IMG/VR virus record: IMGVR_UViG_3300048831_000066
Span: 1 to 42,311 of that record
Reading direction: 5' to 3' (one strand)
DNA length: 42,311 nt
Source of the DNA: a virus
The position numbers and the translations under genes were made by a program. Below, piece by piece: positions 1,510-26,443 of this stretch (the stretch's first letter is position 1; each line of letters opens with the position of its first letter). Under the pieces are notes generated by a model, which worked only from the letters and a program-made list of their open reading frames with translations, did no database searches and was not told the origin of the DNA.

Positions 1510-1800
1510 CTATGCCTGGTGCCGCGTGTTTGCTGAATCTAAAACGACTGTGACCGGACTATCGTCTACAAGTTCACCTATTATATGCTCACGACACATT
1601 ACCCAAGAGCGCCTATCGTTAGAACTCTCCGCTCGAGAAGCAATATCGAACAGAGCGCACCACGTTCCACACTGCGCAGACCCGTCACCATAAGGACAAC
1701 CAAGCTTCCGACCATCCTCGGCTACCAGGATCTTGGTGGTCTTGGTGTTCTTCCGAATTAGGCTAACCCTCTTCACGTTTTCACCGCATGGATTCCGCAC
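1510..1800 (-). CDS. Small Cys-containing protein, unknown
   Basis: A 96-aa protein of unknown function containing four Cys (two in a GCPYGDGSAQCGTWC stretch) that could bind a metal or form disulfides. It reads from a GTG at 1800 and overlaps the end of the CysH-like gene by 28 bases, so the true start may be further in. It is the last gene after the ATP-grasp/PLP/CysH cassette and may belong to it. I do not recognise the family. Confidence 0.45.
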   Translation of the reverse strand: MRNPCGENVKRVSLIRKNTKTTKILVAEDGRKLGCPYGDGSAQCGTWCALFDIASRAESSNDRRSWVMCREHIIGELVDDSPVTVVLDSANTRHQA

Positions 1801-2396
1801 TCTAGCCTCTCACCGGCCCAGCGGCCAGAGCGCTCATCGTCCGAGGTCGGCAGGCTCGTGCAAGGCTGGCACCCAATCGACCGGTATCCCTGGCTGTGCA
1901 GCGGTTGCACTGGTACGTCGTTATCTCGAATGTATTTCCAGCATTGCTCGCTTGTCCAGTTTAGCATCGGAGCCAAACGGATCTTGCCAAACTGGTCAGG
2001 CTCGATTTCCCTTGTGTCCTTTCTCGTCGAGGCCTGGTCCCACCGAAGAGCGGAAACCCATGCCTGATAAGGCTGTAGCGCGCACCACAGTGGAAGAACC
2101 TTGTGCTCGGTGCAGCACTCTTGCGTCGGCGGGAGGTGCGTGCTCTGCGGGGGAGGTCCGACCCAGTGCAGGTCCAGATCCCATTCCCGGCCCATGAGGT
2201 TGGCGAAGTCCACGGTTTCACTGAACAGCTTGCCAGTGTCGATGGAAATGACCGGGACGTGCTCCCAGACCTTGCGGGCATGATCAAGCAGAACCATCCC
2301 TGAGTAGCCCCACGCTGTGGTGAAGATGACCTTGTCGTTGTACATGTCACGGTAGAAACTCAAAGTCTCGCGCAACCTATCAGACTTCTCTGTCAC
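1773..2396 (-). CDS. cysH: Phosphoadenylyl/adenylyl-sulfate reductase (CysH-like, 4Fe-4S type)
   Basis: A 207-aa adenosine-phosphosulfate reductase-family protein of the PP-loop/HUP fold. It has the nucleotide-binding start (TTAWGYSGMVLLD), the IDTGKLFSET strand, a Cys94-Cys95 pair, a Cys176-x-x-Cys179 pair, and the C-terminal catalytic Cys200 in ECGIH. The CC plus CxxC set is the ligand pattern of the 4Fe-4S cluster in APS-type reductases, which reduce activated sulfate to sulfite. The start is taken as the GTG in a GTGA overlap with the PLP gene; a TTG one codon upstream is an alternative. The glycine-rich loop is unusual (Gly-Tyr-Ser-Gly in place of the usual Gly-Ala-Gln-Ser type), so the substrate may differ. 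CysH-like genes are known as viral auxiliary metabolic genes. Confidence 0.85.
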   Translation of the reverse strand: MTEKSDRLRETLSFYRDMYNDKVIFTTAWGYSGMVLLDHARKVWEHVPVISIDTGKLFSETVDFANLMGREWDLDLHWVGPPPQSTHLPPTQECCTEHKVLPLWCALQPYQAWVSALRWDQASTRKDTREIEPDQFGKIRLAPMLNWTSEQCWKYIRDNDVPVQPLHSQGYRSIGCQPCTSLPTSDDERSGRWAGERLECGIHAVKT

Positions 2397-3154
2397 CAAG
2401 GTACTGGTCCTTTCAGCGCTCCGGTGAGGTTGATCACGGGAGGTCTCTCGGTCTCACCATATTTCTTAGTCCATCTCCACCATCCTGCAAGGCCTACCGC
2501 GGCCTCGAGGCCGGGAGCAGGCAAGCAGTTCACTAAGCTCTGTAGGTGCTCCAAGGCGCGGTAAATCTCCGATGCCGAGACCTCGATAGCCTCGGGGAGC
2601 TCGGGCGCGTCGGCCAGAGCAGGCGCCCAACGAGGGATGAGATCGGGCTCGGGGCGCACGGGAATGACCACGGTACTTCGAGCTGGCCAAACGGCTTTGA
2701 CCGCCGCGCAACCATATCCGCCGCCTGTGGCCTGGAAGTAATGATCTGGCGGGCTATCACGGTACATTTCATGGACTTGCTGTAATATCTCTCGAGCCAT
2801 AATCTGATGAGCAATCATCTTCAATTGGTTGTTGCTTCCAGCGAATAAGATAGTCCTTCCCTTATCAGACATCTCATACTCGTCCATAACCTGCTTTATG
2901 ACACGAATCCGGGGAGTCTTATCGTCCCATGTGTAAACTACAACATCTAAATCTTTGCATATACTAGTTATAGCCTCACCAGTGTTACCACTGGTTGCTA
3001 CAATAATCGTTTTCACACCCTGCAAAGCCGCAAAATGTTTCACAACCACAGCTTCGCGGTATTTAAAAGACCCCGTTGGGAGCATATAATCACATTTCAG
3101 ATAAACCATTCGGCCGCAACCGTCATCTGATAGGATGAGGGGACTTCTTATCAT
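2393..3154 (-). CDS. PLP-dependent enzyme, fold type II (threonine/cysteine synthase-like)
   Basis: A 253-aa tryptophan-synthase-beta-fold enzyme. The PLP-binding lysine is Lys31 in PTGSFKYRE, followed by the Asn loop SGNTGEA (residues 55-61), the glycine-rich phosphate loop TGGGYG (143-148) and a C-terminal INLTGALKG that would contact the pyridine nitrogen. The lysine context resembles threonine synthase and diaminopropionate-type enzymes more than CysK. It is shorter than the 300-400 aa usual for the family. I chose the ATG at 3154 because it forms an ATGA overlap with the upstream ATP-grasp stop and has GGAAG before it; an ATG nine bases upstream is possible. It sits between ATP-grasp ligases and CysH, so it may supply an amino-acid-like building block. 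Exact reaction unknown. Confidence 0.8.
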   Translation of the reverse strand: MIRSPLILSDDGCGRMVYLKCDYMLPTGSFKYREAVVVKHFAALQGVKTIIVATSGNTGEAITSICKDLDVVVYTWDDKTPRIRVIKQVMDEYEMSDKGRTILFAGSNNQLKMIAHQIMAREILQQVHEMYRDSPPDHYFQATGGGYGCAAVKAVWPARSTVVIPVRPEPDLIPRWAPALADAPELPEAIEVSASEIYRALEHLQSLVNCLPAPGLEAAVGLAGWWRWTKKYGETERPPVINLTGALKGPVPW

Positions 3155-3963
3155 TTCTTCCATACAACACCTTTGAATTGCGTGCCGGGGTTATGATTGA
3201 TTTCTATAATCACAAATTTATTATTTTTATCAAATGTTCCATCGACGGACCAATTTTGATTTCTATAACGTTTAACCTTTGGGACTATCTCTTTGTTTAT
3301 CTGCTCGACTACTTCAGGAATGCCCCCAAGCTTCTCCCCAAAAGGAGCGGTCTCAAGAGATTTTTCTTTGACTACTTTAGCCGTATGAGAATCAATTGAT
3401 TTCAAATCAATATCTTCTTTACTTCGAATAACACCCTCTAAGTCGACCCATATGTATTTTCTGTCCTTCCAGCCAGAGTTAGAGATTCCTGAATGTTCAA
3501 AATACAGTGGCGTTAGGCCTATAAAGCTCACTCGGTCGTGCCCAATAAGTCGGATAACCGGGGGGCATCTAATATCATCGGTGAACTTGTGTAGCCGTTC
3601 ATGTGGGTAAATCCATTCCTCGGCAAACCACGAACGTACAGCCATTAATTTTTTTGGAGTGTTTAGCTTTATCTTTCTTATCCTATTTAGTTTGACCCTT
3701 AGCTTGTTAGGTGCAATTAAATCTTTATCTGGAAACATTATGAAACCTTCAGAAGTCTTCTCTAGCAGAGCTATGCCGCTGCTTTGACGACCACTCTGAG
3801 GTTTCCACACGTATTCTCCCATAGGGGCGTTCACTAGAGCCCCTACCGTAGCATAAAACCGCCCAGGATTAATCAAGTTGTTAGGATAAGAAAAAGAGGT
3901 ATTCTCGCTAAGCCAAAGCTTAGTGAAAATCTTGTTCCAAAACATTTTGGCATTTATTAACAT
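3151..3963 (-). CDS. ATP-grasp ligase-like protein, copy 1
   Basis: A 270-aa ATP-grasp superfamily protein, clearly paralogous to the next two genes. Shared landmarks are an N-terminal KIFTKxWLSENTSF stretch, the ATP-binding lysine in YVWKP followed by a glycine/Arg loop, a WFAEEWIYPHER segment expected to contact adenine, a conserved PPVIR strand, an LDxxGV strand, and the C-terminal WSVDGxFDKNN...VIIEIN metal-binding motif. Enzymes of this fold join a carboxylate (activated as acyl-phosphate) to an amine or thiol. It is AT-rich compared with its surroundings, begins directly after the stop of copy 2 and overlaps the PLP gene. Substrate unknown. Confidence 0.75.
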   Translation of the reverse strand: MLINAKMFWNKIFTKLWLSENTSFSYPNNLINPGRFYATVGALVNAPMGEYVWKPQSGRQSSGIALLEKTSEGFIMFPDKDLIAPNKLRVKLNRIRKIKLNTPKKLMAVRSWFAEEWIYPHERLHKFTDDIRCPPVIRLIGHDRVSFIGLTPLYFEHSGISNSGWKDRKYIWVDLEGVIRSKEDIDLKSIDSHTAKVVKEKSLETAPFGEKLGGIPEVVEQINKEIVPKVKRYRNQNWSVDGTFDKNNKFVIIEINHNPGTQFKGVVWKK

Positions 3964-4791
3964 CTATTTCTTCTTCCAAGTGACTCCTAAAAATGGGGTT
4001 CCTATTGCAGAGTTAATTTCGATAATAACAAACCGATTATTCTTATCAAAGACTCCATCAACAGACCAGCACTTGTTATGAACTAGCTTCAATTTCGGAC
4101 TAATTTCACTATTCACTTGATCGATGATTTCCTTAACGCCCTCAATTTTTTGGCCACACAAGTCCGTGTCAATACGCCTATCCACAACAGACTTTAGTGT
4201 TTTCTTGTCAGCACTAGACAGGTCCATTTCATCGGTGTGTCTTACGACACCATTAAAATCTAACCATAGATACTTCCGATGGTCCCAACCAAAGGAAGAT
4301 ATGCCGACCTCGTTAAAGTATACTGGCGAAATCACAACAAAATGAACTTTACTGCGGCCGCAAATACGAATAACTGGCGGACAGCGCATGTCATCCGTAA
4401 ACGGTTTCAAGCGTTCGTGTGGCTTAATCCATTCCTCGGCAAACCACCTTCTATGACCTCGAATCTCTTTGGCCTCGGAAATAGTTAACCGCTTTATCCT
4501 AATTAACTCTTCAATAGTGGCTTGCAAAGATAATACATCACTAGATGGAAATATCTTGTATCCGTCGGCAGTTTTATCCAGTAGAGCTACTCCCCAACCC
4601 TTGCGGCCAAAGCATGGCTTCCACACATATTCCCCAACGGGTAACTCCTCTAATTTATTGATAGAAACGTCGAAATAATCGAGCTCTATGCAGTTCTTAG
4701 GATAAGCAAATGTAGTATTTTCGCTAAGCCATTGCTTAGTATAAATCTTGTTTGCAAACCTTTTAGGTATTATCCTATGATTAATAATCAT
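3964..4791 (-). CDS. ATP-grasp ligase-like protein, copy 2
   Basis: A 275-aa ATP-grasp paralogue. It shows KIYTKQWLSENTTFAYPKN near the N-terminus, YVWKPCFGRKGWGVALL (ATP lysine and glycine loop), RRWFAEEWIKPHER, CPPVIRICG, YLWLDFNGV and WSVDGVFDKNN...IIEIN. I use the ATG at 4791 rather than 4815: it forms an ATGA overlap with the stop of copy 3, is preceded by GGGAAGG, and gives an N-terminus (MIIN) matching MLIN and MRIN in the sister copies. Low GC like its neighbours, consistent with local duplication after acquisition. Confidence 0.78.
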   Translation of the reverse strand: MIINHRIIPKRFANKIYTKQWLSENTTFAYPKNCIELDYFDVSINKLEELPVGEYVWKPCFGRKGWGVALLDKTADGYKIFPSSDVLSLQATIEELIRIKRLTISEAKEIRGHRRWFAEEWIKPHERLKPFTDDMRCPPVIRICGRSKVHFVVISPVYFNEVGISSFGWDHRKYLWLDFNGVVRHTDEMDLSSADKKTLKSVVDRRIDTDLCGQKIEGVKEIIDQVNSEISPKLKLVHNKCWSVDGVFDKNNRFVIIEINSAIGTPFLGVTWKKK

Positions 4792-5630
4792 GGCCTTCCC
4801 GACTTCCCTTTCCATGTAACACCCAAAAATCCTGGTGCGGCCATTTTATTAATCTCGACGACAATGAATCTGTCATCTTTATCAAAGATTCCATCAACAG
4901 ACCAGCTTCGGAACTTGTTAAATTTCAGCTTAGGGCTAATTTCTCGATTTATTTGGTTTATCAGTTCTCTAACACCTTCTATTTTTTCACCGTAAAAAGG
5001 TGTTTCTACACTTCTATCTGGTACAATTCGCTTAGTTAAAGCATTAGATTTTTTTATATTTAGCGCCTCTTCCGGTATAATCACGCCATCGAAATCGAGC
5101 CATATATACTTGCGTTGTTTCCAACCCGTCGGCGCTATACCTGACAAATTGAGATACACTGGCGACAACGTCACAAAATGGACTCTATTCTGACCACAAA
5201 CGCGAATAAGTGGGGGCAACCTTTTGTCATCGGTGAATTTATGGAAGCGTTCATGTGGATAAATCCACTCTTCTGCAAACCATTTTTTAAATCTTCCGGC
5301 TTCACGGACCTCTGAAATAGATAATCTTTTTATCCTAGTCAGTTCACAAACTAATTCTTCCGAAGACATAATTTTGTCGGACGGGTATACTTTAAAACCT
5401 TCTACGTTTTTTTCTACTAGGGCTACACCCCAGCTTTTTCTACCATAGCAAGGCTTCCAAACATAGTTACCACAAGGTATATCAAGAAACCGGCTAGAAG
5501 CTTTACCGAAATCATCTAAATCTATAACATTCTTAGGATAGGCAAAGGTTGTATTAGCCTGCAACCATTCCTTGGTAAAAATCTTATCGTCGAATCTTGC
5601 AGTGTTGAGACCATCCTTATTTATTCGCAT
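4788..5630 (-). CDS. ATP-grasp ligase-like protein, copy 3
   Basis: A 280-aa ATP-grasp paralogue with all expected elements: Lys59 in YVWKP, the loop GRKSWGVALV (63-72), Glu120/Glu121 in WFAEEW, and Asp246, Glu259 and Asn261 in the C-terminal SVDGIFDKDD...VVEIN Mg/ATP site. The start has a GAGG Shine-Dalgarno six bases upstream and overlaps the fourth ATP-grasp gene by 10 bases. High similarity to copies 1 and 2 in motif order and length indicates tandem duplication. The retained catalytic residues suggest all three are active rather than decaying. Confidence 0.78.
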   Translation of the reverse strand: MRINKDGLNTARFDDKIFTKEWLQANTTFAYPKNVIDLDDFGKASSRFLDIPCGNYVWKPCYGRKSWGVALVEKNVEGFKVYPSDKIMSSEELVCELTRIKRLSISEVREAGRFKKWFAEEWIYPHERFHKFTDDKRLPPLIRVCGQNRVHFVTLSPVYLNLSGIAPTGWKQRKYIWLDFDGVIIPEEALNIKKSNALTKRIVPDRSVETPFYGEKIEGVRELINQINREISPKLKFNKFRSWSVDGIFDKDDRFIVVEINKMAAPGFLGVTWKGKSGRP

Positions 5631-6529
5631 GGTCGCCTCAACCCGTCGTAAGTGTTTAGATGCTTCACGTTTGGAGCATGCTCAATCTCAATGCAAACGA
5701 AGTCGACCGAACCATCCTTGTTCTGCCGATAGACCCCATCGAACGCAAACAATGCGTGAGGGCTCATTGCCAAGCATATCTCATTTTTTATTGAGTCTAG
5801 GATCTTGTCGAAGAACGGCAAGACCATCCCCGTAACGTCCTTCACCGTCCCGTAGTTCTCGATGGACCAAGGCAGGTCGTTCGGCACGTCTGGGCGGGTC
5901 TGTAGGAGCTCTCCCGCGTAGTTGAAACAGATGCGCCGAGCCCCACCCTGCAAGGTTCCCCGGCCTCGAGAGGCTTTCGTCGGTATGTGGATTTCACCGA
6001 AGTGGAAATCTCCTCGGCTCATGATGATTCTCACGAGCGGATTGAATGGGGCGTCATACTCAAGGGTTTTCAGTTCTTCGGGTGCAGGCGAGATGTACTC
6101 TTCCACAATCCACTTAAGAGCTGTCGGAGCTTTGGGGATGTCTGAAACAATATCAAGGAACAACTCGTTGGAATCAAGTAGGCGTAAATTAGCATCCCTG
6201 AATCCAATATCATTTGGTTCCTTCCAGACCATACGAACTCCCCTAGAACGGGACAAGTTAACAGGCTTCACTATCACCCAACGTTCTGTAGGACAGCTCG
6301 TACCTGTCAACCATGCACGCAACTCGGCCCAAGTAGCCGAGCAAACTAGCGTAGGAGGAATATTAAACGACGTATTGGCTAACAGCCAGTTCTTAGTCCA
6401 AACCTTATTCCATGTAGACTTTAATATTTTCCTGTATGGTGCAGGTTCATTCTTTCTTCGCTCTGCACGCAACCGTTTAGGATTTATAACATGAGGCCTT
6501 TTCTGAGTCGTTACTACAACCTTACCCAT
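5621..6529 (-). CDS. ATP-grasp ligase-like protein, divergent copy 4
   Basis: A 302-aa distant paralogue of the following three genes and the first of the cassette to be translated. It keeps KVWTKNWLLANTSF at the N-terminus, WVIVKP (ATP lysine), a WIVEEYISP segment, NPLVRI, and FAFDGVY...VCIEIE. Asn of the usual EIN triad is replaced by Glu-His (EIEHAPN), so the metal site may differ. I place the start at the ATG at 6529: it has GAGG nearby, overlaps the zinc-protein stop by 8 bases and gives a family-like length; the open frame continues upstream to 6703 but only through the neighbour's coding sequence. Less AT-rich than copies 1-3. Confidence 0.7.
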   Translation of the reverse strand: MGKVVVTTQKRPHVINPKRLRAERRKNEPAPYRKILKSTWNKVWTKNWLLANTSFNIPPTLVCSATWAELRAWLTGTSCPTERWVIVKPVNLSRSRGVRMVWKEPNDIGFRDANLRLLDSNELFLDIVSDIPKAPTALKWIVEEYISPAPEELKTLEYDAPFNPLVRIIMSRGDFHFGEIHIPTKASRGRGTLQGGARRICFNYAGELLQTRPDVPNDLPWSIENYGTVKDVTGMVLPFFDKILDSIKNEICLAMSPHALFAFDGVYRQNKDGSVDFVCIEIEHAPNVKHLNTYDGLRRPCE

Positions 6530-6911
6530 CTTTTTGCCTCTTTCGTGGTGTTTTAGAACGTACAATATGCCGAGGTGCTTTTTTACCTTCGGGGTCCGCT
6601 TTGGCTTGCCGAGCTTTCTTTGCTCTTGCCGCTCGCTCGAAAGGTCCAGTTCCATGTTCAGACATGAACTTGCCAGGGGAACTGGATAAGATTTGATTAT
6701 CACGCAACTCTGCTAACCCACAAAGGTCGCAAGAACTTCCAAGCAGGCGGTTTCCGCACTTCTCGCAGGCCTTGGTACCCATCCAACACACAAAACACAG
6801 ATCACCCACGTGAGTGTCTCTTATGGGCATCTTTGAGCGTTGACATTTCCTACACGCCCTTATTGTAAGGGGATAATGTCCCCAACTCTTACTTGTAAAG
6901 GTTGTGGTCAC
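6522..6911 (-). CDS. Small protein with four CxxC zinc knuckles
   Basis: A 129-aa protein whose first half carries four regularly spaced CxxC pairs (Cys20/23, 39/42, 49/52, 61/64), enough for two zinc sites of rubredoxin/zinc-ribbon type. The second half is a basic Lys/Arg/Ala-rich tail that could bind nucleic acid. It starts at a GTG that overlaps the ribbon-helix-helix gene by 23 bases and precedes the ATP-grasp cassette. Function unknown; a transcription or nucleic-acid cofactor is the simplest guess. Confidence 0.6.
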   Translation of the reverse strand: MTTTFTSKSWGHYPLTIRACRKCQRSKMPIRDTHVGDLCFVCWMGTKACEKCGNRLLGSSCDLCGLAELRDNQILSSSPGKFMSEHGTGPFERAARAKKARQAKADPEGKKAPRHIVRSKTPRKRQKDG

Positions 6912-7167
6912 GATACTCTTTCAGCGCTACAAAGACGGTGTCAGCGACCTCCCGCATTACCACGCCCTTGGCGCTGTGCCAAAGCTGCGCGGTAATCTGC
7001 TCTTGTGAGCTGCCCAAGGCGCTCGAGATGAGGATTCTAAGTGCCGCCGATATATTAAGCGAGCCCCCCTCGTTTACGAGCCCATTCTTCTCAGCAAAGA
7101 CCTCGATTCGTTGGATTGTCTCGTTGTCCAGTCTAACTGCAAGTGCGCGTGTTTGCTCTTTATTCAT
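6889..7167 (-). CDS. Ribbon-helix-helix (CopG-like) DNA-binding protein
   Basis: A 92-aa protein with an N-terminal ribbon-helix-helix pattern: a beta strand RALAVRLD, helix NETIQRIEVFAEKN and second helix ISAALRILISSAL, followed by a helical extension. Such proteins bind DNA as dimers and often repress nearby promoters. I chose the ATG at 7167 (GGGGA upstream); an ATG at 7179 would add four residues but has no ribosome site. It lies directly after the DNA polymerase gene (60 bases apart) and overlaps the zinc-protein gene. Confidence 0.6.
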   Translation of the reverse strand: MNKEQTRALAVRLDNETIQRIEVFAEKNGLVNEGGSLNISAALRILISSALGSSQEQITAQLWHSAKGVVMREVADTVFVALKEYRDHNLYK

Positions 7168-7227: not shown

Positions 7228-9738
7228 TTATTTAGGGACGCGGAGATCAAGATGGTTGGGGCCTAGCTTGCCCTCGACCTCGAAGGCCATGTGATACGTC
7301 TTGCCGGTGATAGGCGAGGTCAGCTTCTTCGAGCAGCGCATCGAGCTCATGAGATCCTCGAGGGCCTGCTCGGCGTAGTCGACACTGACCTCGGCGCGAA
7401 GATCGTCATGAAGCTGCATAATTGGCCATACTCTCGTGTGGTAGTCACCTTTCTCTTCCAATAATTGCATCCATCTGATTGTAGCAGTGTCTACAATGTC
7501 TGCCGCGCCGCCCTGAACCGGGTGGTTCGTGGCCTCGGTATCAGGCACACCCCCCAGGGGCCAGCGCCTTCGCCGGCCAAGCCAGGGCGTTCGGAGCTCA
7601 AAGGTCCGGTTTGCGATTTCAGTGACGTAGGCAGAATACTCATTGACATTTTGGTATTTTGCTCTCTTACGGGCCTGCATGACCTGGACCTCTTTGAAAG
7701 TGATCCCAGGAACATCCTCGCGCACGTTCTCATACAAAGTCTGTGGTCCAGCTCGATAGATGTCACCGAAGGTCACAGGCTTGGAGTTCGTCCGCAAGAG
7801 CTTGCGTTGATCGGTGCTCGCTCTATGCCAGGTCTCACCGAAATAAACCTCAGCAAACATAGAGTGTACGTCAGTCCCATTGATGAAGGCCTCGATGAGA
7901 TCCTCTTGGCCGGCGAGCAGCACCGATATGCGAAGCTCGAGCGCTGCGTAGTCCGCTGAGATGATGCAGCGCCCTGGTGCTGGCACGAGCATACGTCGCA
8001 TGGACCTCGGCCAGTTCTGCACAGCGGGCTTTGTGCCGAAGCGTCCTGAAGGCGTCGCGGTCTTGTTCCAGCGCGTGTGAATGCGCCCGTCCGAGCCGAC
8101 CTCTTGACCCAAACCGTCGATGTAGGTCGAGAACAATTTCGTTTTGGTTCGATAGGCCTGCAAGAGCTCGACGAACGGATGATCTCTGAACTCAAAAAGG
8201 CTGGCAGCATCGGTCGAAAGCTGGCCACTTTTCGTGACCTTTTTGGGTACTAAATTGAACTGCTCAACGAGCACCTTCTGAAGTTGTGGGGGACTGTTCG
8301 GATTGAAGTCGCGACTCCCCACGAGAGACCATATATTCTCTTTCAGGCATGCGATGCTCTCGCTGAATTCCTTATGCAGCACAAGGCGCGCATCCTCGTC
8401 GACTCCGAGTCCGACCTTCTCCCAGTCCATAGCGTAGCGCGTGATAATCCGATCTGTCTCGTACACATTCAGAACGTTCTCACGACGCATCTCTTGCCGC
8501 AATTTGTCATGCAGAAGGATCGTGTTCGCGGTGTCCGCTCCGTTGTAGTAGAGCAGCGCGGGGATGTCCTCGTCGCTCACGTTGATGAACCGCTTATCGT
8601 AGTATTCCTTCCAGGGCTCGACCGGGAAAAATTGAGTCGCCACAGCTTGCAAGTCGTGAGGTGTTTTTGGGTAGATCGCGTGGTGCTCGAGGAACGTGTC
8701 TTCGATCTTCCCAGCAATCTGGATTTCCATCATTCGCTCGATGATCGGGACGTCGAAAGCCATGTTGTGGAACACCCACGTTCGCTCAGGATCTTGGAAG
8801 GCGATCTTGAGTGCATTCCAAGAGGCTTGCCAATCTTCCGTGGTGAAGTAAGAGCGCAACCCTGGGCATGGAATGGACACCGCGAGGGGCTTCTCTTCGC
8901 CTGTCTCGTCATCATAGATGAGACGCGCCAAACCTACTGTCGTGATCCCGCATTCGCGCACGTCCAGTCCATCTGTCTCGAGGTCCACGGCTACGGGTTC
9001 TGAAGGTAACTCAAGCACTCGTTGAACAGCTTCAAGGGTGAAGGCCTCGACCACGGGCTGGCGCAACGCAAGCTTCTCGTTGGCCAAGAGGTGCGCCTTC
9101 TCGACGTCGGCAACGAACAGATCCAACCACACTTGCTTCGCGGGTGAGCGCAGCATAGCCGCTGGATGGATAGTCGACACGACGAGCGTTCCCCACGTCT
9201 CTTCGGCGGTGGCCTCGGTCTGTGCTGGCGGCTCCACTATCTTTGGGTCAAAGTCAACAGGAAACTGTGCAGTCTCGGACGTCAAGACCTCGAGGGGATA
9301 CTTGATACTAAAGTCTTGCCAAGTAGTAGCTCCTCGGAACTTCTCAACGCCTTTGAGGCCCGTCGTCGACTGCAATGCAATACCACCCAAAGTCAAGATC
9401 GCCCGCGGCTTCACTTCGACAATGTTGGCCTCGAGCTCCCCCTGACAACACTCTCGAGCAACCTTCATTGCGGCATCCGATGGTTTAGTCCCGCCGCTGA
9501 AGTTGCATCGAATCGCATTCGTGATATGGGTCGCCTCAATTGACGTGTGCAGATGGTCTAAAACCGTCTTCAAGATGTGTCCCGAGGCCCCCACAAAGGG
9601 AACTCCCCGCTTGACCTCTTCGCGGCCCGGGCTCTCCCCGATGACCAGCAAGTTGTTCCACGCGACGAGGGGGTGCTTGTCCATGACTTCCAATCCATTC
9701 TCGAAGAATGGGCATGTAGTCTGATTACATGGTTTCAT
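7228..9738 (-). CDS. Uracil-DNA glycosylase / family A DNA polymerase fusion
   Basis: An 836-aa fused replication enzyme. Residues 1-225 are a family 4-type uracil-DNA glycosylase: GESPG (35-38 region), GVPFVG (45-50), ITNAIRC (72-78) and the active-site HP (191-192), with Cys4, Cys9, Cys78 and Cys97 or 98 as probable 4Fe-4S ligands. Residues 245-430 are a DEDDy 3'-5' exonuclease: DLE (252-254), HNMAFD (324-329) and YNGAD (398-402). Residues 430-836 are a Pol I-type polymerase: motif A ADYAALELR (595-603), motif B around 646-661 with Lys653 and TFGDIY, and motif C LHDD (776-779) where most Pol I enzymes have HDE. No 5' nuclease is present. A GGGAG site sits 7 bases before the ATG and lies in a region that can pair with the upstream structured RNA. 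Confidence 0.93.
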   Translation of the reverse strand: MKPCNQTTCPFFENGLEVMDKHPLVAWNNLLVIGESPGREEVKRGVPFVGASGHILKTVLDHLHTSIEATHITNAIRCNFSGGTKPSDAAMKVARECCQGELEANIVEVKPRAILTLGGIALQSTTGLKGVEKFRGATTWQDFSIKYPLEVLTSETAQFPVDFDPKIVEPPAQTEATAEETWGTLVVSTIHPAAMLRSPAKQVWLDLFVADVEKAHLLANEKLALRQPVVEAFTLEAVQRVLELPSEPVAVDLETDGLDVRECGITTVGLARLIYDDETGEEKPLAVSIPCPGLRSYFTTEDWQASWNALKIAFQDPERTWVFHNMAFDVPIIERMMEIQIAGKIEDTFLEHHAIYPKTPHDLQAVATQFFPVEPWKEYYDKRFINVSDEDIPALLYYNGADTANTILLHDKLRQEMRRENVLNVYETDRIITRYAMDWEKVGLGVDEDARLVLHKEFSESIACLKENIWSLVGSRDFNPNSPPQLQKVLVEQFNLVPKKVTKSGQLSTDAASLFEFRDHPFVELLQAYRTKTKLFSTYIDGLGQEVGSDGRIHTRWNKTATPSGRFGTKPAVQNWPRSMRRMLVPAPGRCIISADYAALELRISVLLAGQEDLIEAFINGTDVHSMFAEVYFGETWHRASTDQRKLLRTNSKPVTFGDIYRAGPQTLYENVREDVPGITFKEVQVMQARKRAKYQNVNEYSAYVTEIANRTFELRTPWLGRRRRWPLGGVPDTEATNHPVQGGAADIVDTATIRWMQLLEEKGDYHTRVWPIMQLHDDLRAEVSVDYAEQALEDLMSSMRCSKKLTSPITGKTYHMAFEVEGKLGPNHLDLRVPK

Positions 9739-22770: not shown

Positions 22771-23358
22771 ATGAGTCTACCTGGCAGAAGAATTGTCGAT
22801 GCACAATTCGGGACAGCCGAAGTTCACGACGTCTATTCGCTCAACGACCGCTTGTCCCTCATCAACGGTCAAGTTTTCAAAAGCCTGCGAGACCCTTCCA
22901 TACGCGCCCTTGCGTTAGACCTCGTTCGAGGCACCCCGCAACATGGCAATGAATCCGAGCTCTCAGAACTGTCGCGAGTCTTCTGGTTCGTCAAGAAGAA
23001 TGTTGAATACAGGCAAGACCCACACCAGTACGATTTATACTCTACAGCTTCTAGGACTATCCAGGTGCATGCGGGGGATTGTGACGATCACTGCACGTTG
23101 ATCGCTGCCCTGGTAGGAAACCTTGGATTCATCCCAGGGGCTAAAGTGATTTCACCGGATGGAGCTAACTGGCACATCTACGCGCTCACTTCAGTGTTTC
23201 CGCGTAGCAACCCGCAAGCTCCCACGGCAAGATATTTAGCTCTCGACACCACACAACCGGCAAGTCACCCAGGGTGGGAACCTCCCGCGAAGTTCCAACG
23301 CTACGCACGGGTGGTCACGTTCACTGAAAGTGGGCCACTGGTCCAAACCGTGAGGTAA
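22771..23358 (+). CDS. Transglutaminase-like cysteine protease-fold protein
   Basis: A 195-aa protein with the transglutaminase/papain-like triad: Cys104 in AGDCDDHCTL, His135 in WHIYALT and Asp159 in YLALDTTQ. In bacteria and viruses this fold mostly acts as a peptidase or amidase, not as a true transglutaminase. At the head of the virion operon it could mature capsid proteins or cut host peptidoglycan or protein on entry. There is no signal peptide and no strong ribosome site. Confidence 0.75.
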   Translation: MSLPGRRIVDAQFGTAEVHDVYSLNDRLSLINGQVFKSLRDPSIRALALDLVRGTPQHGNESELSELSRVFWFVKKNVEYRQDPHQYDLYSTASRTIQVHAGDCDDHCTLIAALVGNLGFIPGAKVISPDGANWHIYALTSVFPRSNPQAPTARYLALDTTQPASHPGWEPPAKFQRYARVVTFTESGPLVQTVR

Positions 23359-25948: not shown

Positions 25949-26443
25949 ATGGGAAAAGACATGATCGCCCGCAACGACGGGCAAGATGAGTCGGATGGCG
26001 ATTTCGGTGCGCTCGACATTCAAGTGTTGAGTGGACTGGACCTCTCTGCTGACAACGTGATCCCGCCGATTCTGGGCGTGGGCGCGGCGGCGATTTCCTC
26101 GCTGCTCGTCCGAAAGTTCGTCGCGCACGAACTCGTCCAGAACTGGGCAGATGCGATTGGCGGCGTGATCGGTGCGGCTCTCTGCATGCCGATCAAATAC
26201 TGGAAGGGCGACGAAGCCATGAGCTCTGCCATGGTGTCGTCTCTCGCTTACGGCGTGGTCACAACTGCCGTGAAGAAGCTCGGCCCCATGCTCGGCATCG
26301 GCTATCTGGTTCCCCAGATGAGCGGCCTGGCCATGGAGCGCATGGGCTATCTGCCGCAGATCCCGACCATGTCCGCTCAGCAGGCATCCATTCCACGTGA
26401 GGTCCGTGCGTCCGCTGACATTTCGGCTTTCGGCCGTCCGTAG
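25949..26443 (+). CDS. Multi-span membrane protein
   Basis: A 164-aa protein with Asp-rich N-terminus and several hydrophobic stretches (about 37-55, 68-83, 90-108 and 112-125), rich in Gly, Ala and Met. AGGAGG lies 6 bases upstream of the ATG. It directly precedes the putative capsid gene and may be a virion membrane protein. Not recognised. Confidence 0.55.
   Translation: MGKDMIARNDGQDESDGDFGALDIQVLSGLDLSADNVIPPILGVGAAAISSLLVRKFVAHELVQNWADAIGGVIGAALCMPIKYWKGDEAMSSAMVSSLAYGVVTTAVKKLGPMLGIGYLVPQMSGLAMERMGYLPQIPTMSAQQASIPREVRASADISAFGRP

Follow-up and report, generated by a model that had tools for sequence, protein, structure and literature searches.

A viral cassette of CysH-type reductase, PLP enzyme and ATP-grasp ligase genes, and its possible role in making a ligated sulfonated amino acid

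Introduction

What might a virus make with a sulfonucleotide reductase, a PLP enzyme and a row of ATP-grasp ligases? Such genes lie side by side in an unclassified DNA virus, within the stretch of 42,311 nucleotides analysed here (the window). The original prediction placed four ATP-grasps, a PLP enzyme and an APS reductase at 1773–6529, and all six ORFs are indeed present and open, arranged head to tail on the minus strand. The answer favoured here, tentatively and with somewhat less than an even chance of being correct, is that the product is a sulfonated amino acid, which the cassette enzymes link to an acceptor through amide bonds.

Organization and conservation of the cassette

The joins between the cassette genes are overlaps of 4–13 nt or abutting ends. 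Translational coupling had been put forward for these genes; the joins do overlap or abut, but there is nothing special in this, as 20 of the 23 minus-strand neighbour joins in this genome arm overlap or lie no more than 12 nt apart. Coupling was therefore dropped as special evidence. The overlapping run also exceeds the cassette, extending from 7164 to 1510. At its head is a small repressor-like protein, possibly of the ribbon-helix-helix type (6889..7164, minus strand), with a weak PHROG match to a transcriptional repressor (E=0.008). A small zinc-ribbon-like protein with several CxxC pairs (6522..6911, minus strand) overlaps ligase d, and an 88-aa protein with four Cys (1510..1776, minus strand) shares a GTGA overlap with cysH. 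Genes for a dCMP deaminase, a 5′-dNMP phosphatase-like protein and a UDG-PolA protein are found nearby.

Conservation of the neighbourhood had been suggested as a check on the set, and the block and its order do recur, in one other virus. This relative has a complete genome of ~61.9 kb and holds the cassette genes in the same order, with three ATP-grasps versus the four present here, copy a being the one missing. Its copies of the repressor-like and zinc-ribbon-like proteins are 96 and 82% identical, respectively, to those described above. No more relatives of the ATP-grasps, the PLP enzyme or CysH were found in IMG/VR, INPHARED, plasmids or GTDB genomes. Relative to this sole relative, dN/dS ranges from 0.04 to 0.19 across the five cassette genes with an orthologue (0.14 for CysH, 0.09 for the PLP enzyme and 0.06 for ligase d). 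These five genes are under purifying selection, which, with the kept gene order, confirms that the cluster is real.

Could chance alone nevertheless have brought these genes together, as unrelated auxiliary genes of a compact early arm? The generic overlap of genes in the arm would fit such an origin, as would the uneven composition of the cassette. The G+C content is 0.39–0.40 for the core ligases, 0.58 for CysH and 0.52 for the PLP enzyme, and pS for the ligases (0.63–0.73) is above that of CysH, the PLP enzyme and other neighbours (0.36–0.55); the genes therefore have differing histories. Chance stacking is quite improbable, however, given that the second virus has retained the block and its order in spite of this divergence, and that the chemistries of CysH and the PLP enzyme match.

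The CysH-type reductase

As judged from its sequence, the 208-aa product of 1773..2399 (minus strand) is a canonical CysH-type (APS) sulfonucleotide reductase, predicted to carry out APS/PAPS reduction. It matches Pfam PAPS_reduct (E=2e-34) and scores 173.2 bits with NCBIfam NF002537, over the cut-off of 154, and 149.9 bits with TIGR02055 (APS_reductase), under the cut-off of 235.3. Matches in the PDB were 7lhr (E=6e-31) and the APS reductase 2goy (E=4e-22). All four Fe-S cysteines (ECC...GCxPC) and the catalytic Cys (ECGIH) are present in both viruses. Thioredoxin is the usual CysH reductant, and a thioredoxin gene is found in the complete relative (Pfam E=1.2e-18). The scanned proteins of the relative included no recognisable sulfite reductase, and for that reason sulfite is probably where the pathway ends, unless host enzymes carry it further.

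Viral cysH is common in metagenome reports, where it is mostly read as a booster of sulfur assimilation. Five CysH matches were obtained from INPHARED. Of the two examined, one was a contig of bacterial appearance and the other an Acidovorax phage protein of the PAPS-reductase family; no PLP or ATP-grasp neighbours were annotated in either.

The ATP-grasp ligases

The three core ligases are copy a (4788..5630), copy b (3964..4791) and copy c (3151..3963), all on the minus strand, with pairwise identities of 46–53%; the divergent ATP-grasp-like protein d (5621..6529, minus strand) aligns with them at about 25% identity. Copy d has no Pfam match, although it matches copy a with E=1.5e-7. Identities to the relative's orthologues are 83% for copy b, 60% for copy c and 81% for copy d. 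Alignment and a residue table, based on the catalytic residues listed in PMC4431377, reveal the linker Lys, strand-2 Lys, Arg, Asp and ExN in all three core copies. The prediction that these copies keep every expected catalytic residue thus holds for Lys/Lys/Arg/Asp/ExN but not, in every copy, for the Gly-x-Gly ATP loop, which reads GWG in copy b, SWG in copy a and SSG in copy c. The altered metal triad noted for the fourth copy is genuine, both viruses having ExE where ExN is expected, and copy d may be regulatory or have a changed chemistry. A pre-ATP-grasp domain is not apparent, the linker Lys being near the N-terminus.

An AlphaFold model was built for copy b only, standing for the ligase fold (pTM 0.76). 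Foldseek returned 198 PDB matches at E≤0.001 (best E 2.5e-6), of which the best were the carboxylate-amine ligases DdlB, ArgX and L-amino-acid ligases. On the basis of this model, the predicted fold of the cassette ligases is that of the ATP-grasp amide ligases. None of the curated RimK, YheCD and ATPgrasp_ST models was matched over its cut-off: copy b scored 19.0 bits with rimK_fam (E=7e-4; cut-off 143.4), and the ATP-grasps reached 15.9 of 26.8 bits with YheCD and 17.9 of 31.4 bits with ATPgrasp_ST. Halogranum virus HGTV-1, the source of a BFVD ATP-grasp match, has no similar set annotated in the parts examined, all of them outside 50–100 kb.

It was of interest to consider whether the ligases modify a protein, in the style of RimK, LysX/ArgX or the tubulin ligases. 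The target would be, for example, the zinc-ribbon-like neighbour, a tail of the virion or some factor of the host, with the PLP enzyme and CysH supplying an unusual amino acid or being incidental. Phage R2K ATP-grasps have been proposed to carry out protein-peptide ligation (PMC4431377, PMC7824862). In the Foldseek results, ArgX bound to the zinc carrier protein LysW ranks second and tubulin tyrosine ligase is also found, and the weak profile hits include MptN as well as rimK_fam. The multi-CxxC protein overlapping ligase d is a possible partner or acceptor of the cassette. LysW carriers, however, end in EDWGE, whereas this protein ends in KRQKDG or KKPKDG in the two viruses, and a LysW carrier system was rejected. 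In addition, the linker lysine is kept, whereas R2K enzymes are defined by having lost it, and no acceptor was recognised. Modification of a protein in this manner is considered unlikely.

The PLP enzyme

The gene at 2393..3163 (minus strand) encodes a short, 256-aa PLP enzyme of fold-type II (Pfam PALP E=2e-17) that is cysteate-synthase-like. Its best match in both PDB searches was the cysteate synthase 9k3c. Its motifs are TGSFKYREA, TSGNTG, PDHYFQATGGGYG and NLTG, the third of these being the phosphate-loop strand YFQAxGxGxG, and they correspond to the cysteate synthase motifs PDHYFQAxGxGxG, SFKxxEA and N(L/I)TG. In a GTDB scan, the carriers of YFQAxGxGxG with a threonine-synthase fold were all cysteate synthases, among the matches listed, and SFKxxEA and N(L/I)TG coincide with those of cysteate synthases along a global alignment. 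A cysteate synthase profile gave 35/29 bits, versus no more than 24 for TrpB, TS, IlvA and CysK. In the tree, the pair of phage sequences is sister to the cysteate synthases (95/95) but outside their 100/100 clade, on a very long branch (3.47). Profile and tree thus lean, not decisively, towards the cysteate synthase group. The enzyme scores 26.7 bits with the curated cysteate synthase model TIGR03844, below its cut-off of 324.9, and 35.7 of 167 bits with thrC, slightly above its cysteate synthase score. Since it is about 170 aa shorter, its substrate loops differ from those of cysteate synthases. An AlphaFold model, from a two-sequence alignment, had a pLDDT of 42. No CysH or ligase genes were found at E≤1e-3 beside bacterial cysteate synthases at the loci examined.

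The PLP enzyme might instead make another β-substituted or β-eliminated amino acid (cysteine, 2,3-diaminopropionate or a threonine-type product) for coupling by the ATP-grasps, with CysH only boosting host sulfide/cysteine assimilation. Its profile matches are scattered over thrC, threonine/serine dehydratase, OrtB, CysK and SbnA, placement with TrpB (p-AU 0.28) or CysK/M (p-AU 0.17) is not rejected by the AU test, and cysH is an often reported viral metabolic gene. The sharing of YFQA-GxGxG, SFKxxEA and NLTG with cysteate synthases argues otherwise, as does the lack, among the scanned proteins of the window and the relative, of any recognisable sulfite reductase, serine acetyltransferase or siderophore gene. 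This alternative is regarded as rather doubtful.

Proposed pathway

In the favoured route to a sulfonated amino acid, CysH would reduce host adenylyl sulfate (APS) to sulfite with thioredoxin. The PLP enzyme, as a divergent cousin of cysteate synthase, would then use the sulfite to displace the phosphate of O-phospho-L-serine, or a similar β-leaving group, yielding L-cysteate. Finally, the ATP-grasps would convert a carboxylate to an acyl phosphate for coupling to an amine, in two to four steps, successive or alternative, with cysteate as the carboxylate or the amine partner. The sequences show the superfamily to which each gene belongs, the intact catalytic residues, the conservation and the selection; we infer the flow of sulfite into cysteate, and the use of cysteate as ligase substrate.

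An amide- or thiol-containing product had been suggested. Successive amide ligases agree with the former; a thiol is less likely than a sulfonate, because CysH yields sulfite, a reductase to take it further was not recognised, and the PLP enzyme looks like cysteate synthase, a sulfite user. DNA is a less likely acceptor than a small molecule or a peptide of the surface or virion; capsid, cell-wall and small-molecule targets are all candidates, on an equal footing. Phages are known to place amino acids or amines on thymine, and that precedent, with the dCMP deaminase, 5′-dNMP phosphatase-like and UDG-PolA genes close by, could point to hypermodification of virion DNA bases. DNA-base modification, one of the targets originally considered, received no support: no hydroxymethylase, base (DNA) kinase, pyrophosphorylase, glycosyltransferase or other known modification family was recognised among the relative's scanned proteins. 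A large share of the genes have no match, and enzymes of an unfamiliar kind may be among them. Hypermodification of DNA is nevertheless very improbable.

The claim of an undescribed biosynthetic set with successive ligases is supported, in that the block is kept in a second virus and no description of any such virus-encoded pathway was found. The fuller version of the sulfonate hypothesis, in which the ATP-grasp set builds a cysteate amide or peptide, or decorates the surface or virion with strongly acidic cysteate, possibly varied among strains by ligase number, is conceivable, if on balance unlikely. The neighbours of this cysH suggest a specific other use for the viral gene, namely, the supply of sulfite for a ligated sulfonated amino acid. 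Such a cysteate pathway, if real, would be the first from a virus to be found in the literature searched, would provide a testable role for a viral cysH and would add a family of minimal ATP-grasp ligases without known close relatives.

Comparison with known systems

The viral CysH is like the assimilatory APS/PAPS reductases in its full domain, Fe-S cysteines, catalytic Cys and NF002537 score over the cut-off, and unlike them in its shorter N-terminus and in having PLP and ligase neighbours rather than other cys genes. As in other cysH auxiliary metabolic genes, it is located on a viral contig; the PLP and ATP-grasp neighbours are seen only here, as compared with the two INPHARED cases examined.

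The viral ligases share their fold and catalytic residues with DdlB, ArgX/LysX, RimK, L-amino-acid ligases and the graspetide ligase PsnB, but differ from those carboxylate-amine ligases in matching no family over its cut-off and in occurring as tandem sets of three or four paralogues. The R2K ligases are, as here, phage-borne ATP-grasps of the peptide type; they have neither the linker lysine nor a standard loop (Burroughs et al. 2015, PMC4431377), whereas the cassette ligases retain that lysine, and R2K membership was rejected on its presence in 7/7 sequences from both viruses.

Cysteate synthase (TIGR03844), known from the coenzyme M pathway of methanogens and the sulfonolipid pathway of Bacteroidota, is about 420–440 aa long, as against 256 aa for the viral PLP enzyme, and no coenzyme M or capnine genes were recognised near the cassette. 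The two have in common the threonine-synthase fold and the motifs PDHYFQAxGxGxG, SFKxxEA, GNT and N(L/I)TG, and the chemistry of cysteate synthase fits the sulfite that the viral CysH is predicted to make.

Organization and conservation of the cassette

Six minus-strand genes run without spacing from 6529 to 1773 of the 42,311-base IMG/VR virus record. They encode a divergent ATP-grasp ligase (copy d, 5621-6529), three related core ATP-grasps with pairwise identities of 46-53% (copies a, 4788-5630; b, 3964-4791; and c, 3151-3963), a fold-type II PLP enzyme (2393-3163) and a CysH-type reductase (1773-2399). On the same strand, the overlapping run takes in two further genes upstream, for a protein carrying several CxxC pairs (6522-6911) and for a repressor-like protein (6889-7164), and one gene downstream, for an 88-aa four-cysteine protein (1510-1776). 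The original prediction noted translational coupling of the six genes. The overlaps (4-13 nt) are real, but they do not distinguish the cassette: of the 23 joins in this arm of the genome, 20 show an overlap or a gap of no more than 12 nt, so that coupling is a general habit here.

Searches of IMG/VR, INPHARED, plasmids and GTDB yielded a sole relative, IMGVR_UViG_3300037041_001875 (65,599 bases). Its first 3,735 bases, compared at 200-base intervals, are repeated at the other end, so it is a complete genome of ~61.9 kb. It is colinear with nearly the whole window and contains the cassette in identical gene order, without ligase copy a. In this comparison of two genomes, for which alignments are shallow, dN/dS was 0.14 for CysH, 0.09 for the PLP enzyme, 0.19 and 0.04 for two core ligases and 0.06 for copy d, with 0.08 for DNA polymerase as the comparison gene. 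These genes have therefore been maintained.

Ligase paralogues are at most 53% identical, whereas orthologues in the two viruses are 60-83% identical; the paralogues thus predate the split of the viruses. It is more likely, therefore, that copy a was lost from the relative, or that the lineage of the window acquired it from some third source. The ligases have diverged more at synonymous sites (pS 0.63-0.73) than the rest of the measured genes (0.36-0.55), and the core ligases are poorer in G+C (0.39-0.40) than the PLP enzyme (0.52) and CysH (0.58), suggesting exchange of the ligase stretch (3151-6529) by recombination.

Relationship of the PLP enzyme to cysteate synthase

The PLP enzyme was originally described as amino-acid type. 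Its top match in two PDB searches was cysteate synthase. Its motifs are PDHYFQATGGGYG, TGSFKYREA and NLTG. Among the matches listed from a scan of GTDB genomes for YFQAxGxGxG (80 loci fetched) were many cysteate synthases, from Bacteroidota, methanogens, Nitrospirota and a cyanobacterium; the others listed were unrelated proteins or frames, with no other enzyme of this fold among them. The same scan of IMG/VR revealed no further viral protein that combines this fold with the motif. Against a profile built from 47 cysteate synthases, the two viral enzymes scored 35.1 and 29.1 bits, and TrpB, TS, IlvA and CysK/M profiles, each built from far fewer sequences, gave at most ~24 bits.

In the maximum-likelihood tree, the viral pair adjoins the cysteate synthases (support 95/95), but its branch is 3.47 changes per site long. 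Of the four partners put to AU tests, the cysteate synthases by themselves (p=0.46), TrpB (0.28) and CysK/M (0.17) were not rejected, and threonine synthase gave p=0.03. The curated cysteate synthase model scored 26.7 bits, far below its cut-off of 324.9. By the tests made, then, the enzyme is not a member of the cysteate synthase family, though it may work like one. The methanogen cysteate synthase originated from threonine synthase. A threonine-synthase-like protein in a Moorena genome (L171, 1486-2622), with 79 bits to one cysteate synthase, is an unassigned, long-branched cousin.

The ATP-grasp ligases

Only sub-threshold matches to the ligases were obtained with Pfam and NCBIfam (YheCD, ATPgrasp_ST, RimK). 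An AlphaFold model of copy b, from a seven-sequence alignment (pLDDT 71.7, pTM 0.76), matched 198 PDB chains at E<=0.001, headed by DdlB, ArgX with LysW and L-amino-acid ligases. The ATP-grasp fold class is secure; the nearest subfamily is not, because TM-scores are modest (mostly 0.3-0.45).

Compared with a published residue list (PMC4431377), all three core copies, like their two orthologues, have the linker Lys, strand-2 Lys, Arg, Asp and ExN. The claim that these copies keep all catalytic residues holds to that extent; the Gly loop varies (GWG in copy b, SWG in copy a and SSG in copy c). The altered metal triad noted for copy d is borne out by ExE in both viruses. Because the linker lysine sits near the N-terminus, a pre-ATP-grasp domain appears to be missing. 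R2K clade membership was ruled out, the linker lysine being present.

Other features of the genomes

The plus-strand arm (window 17069-42126; relative 29388-60000) has almost no Pfam or PHROGs match, and no terminase, portal, capsid or tail gene was recognised among its scanned proteins. Several begin with a hydrophobic segment. A protein with a weak transglutaminase-like match (22771-23358) is 99% identical in the relative, far above most genes, and 25949-26443 is 100% identical. A family A DNA polymerase with a fused UDG domain (7228-9738) has at most ~25% identity to the known phage polymerases listed.

The relative encodes a CheR-type methyltransferase (L010:10867-11661; Pfam E=1.7e-20) and a tyrosine recombinase-like gene (60676-61716; L013:676-1716), whose protein batch contained a Phage_integrase match (E=9e-15); this gene suggests integration.

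A possible route to cysteate and its ligation

CysH scored 173.2 bits against NF002537 (cut-off 154). In both viruses it retains the cysteines characteristic of APS-type reductases (ECC and GCxPC) together with the ECGIH nucleophile. Reduction of host APS to sulfite by CysH is thus well supported by sequence. Thioredoxin is the usual CysH reductant, and the 118-aa thioredoxin of the complete relative (58146-58502; L012:18146-18502; Pfam E=1.2e-18) is a possible one here; the matching position would fall outside the window. The PLP enzyme would convert sulfite to cysteate, as its motifs and its fit with CysH suggest. The ligases, judged by their class, would form amide bonds; their likely substrate is cysteate, given that these genes are kept together.

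DNA, one of the targets originally suggested, is disfavoured, since the scanned proteins of the complete relative revealed no known partner for base modification; even so, many of this virus's genes, a large share, have no match at all. No relevant paper combining cysteate with phage biology was found in the literature searched, which is weak evidence, as most subscription journals lie outside it.

The individual components do have counterparts in known systems. cysH is commonly reported in viruses, and cysteate synthase has a role in sulfonolipid synthesis. Phosphoserine is made into sulfonolipid in four steps (PMC11211663), and phage ATP-grasp ligases have been proposed as protein modifiers (PMC4431377, PMC7824862).
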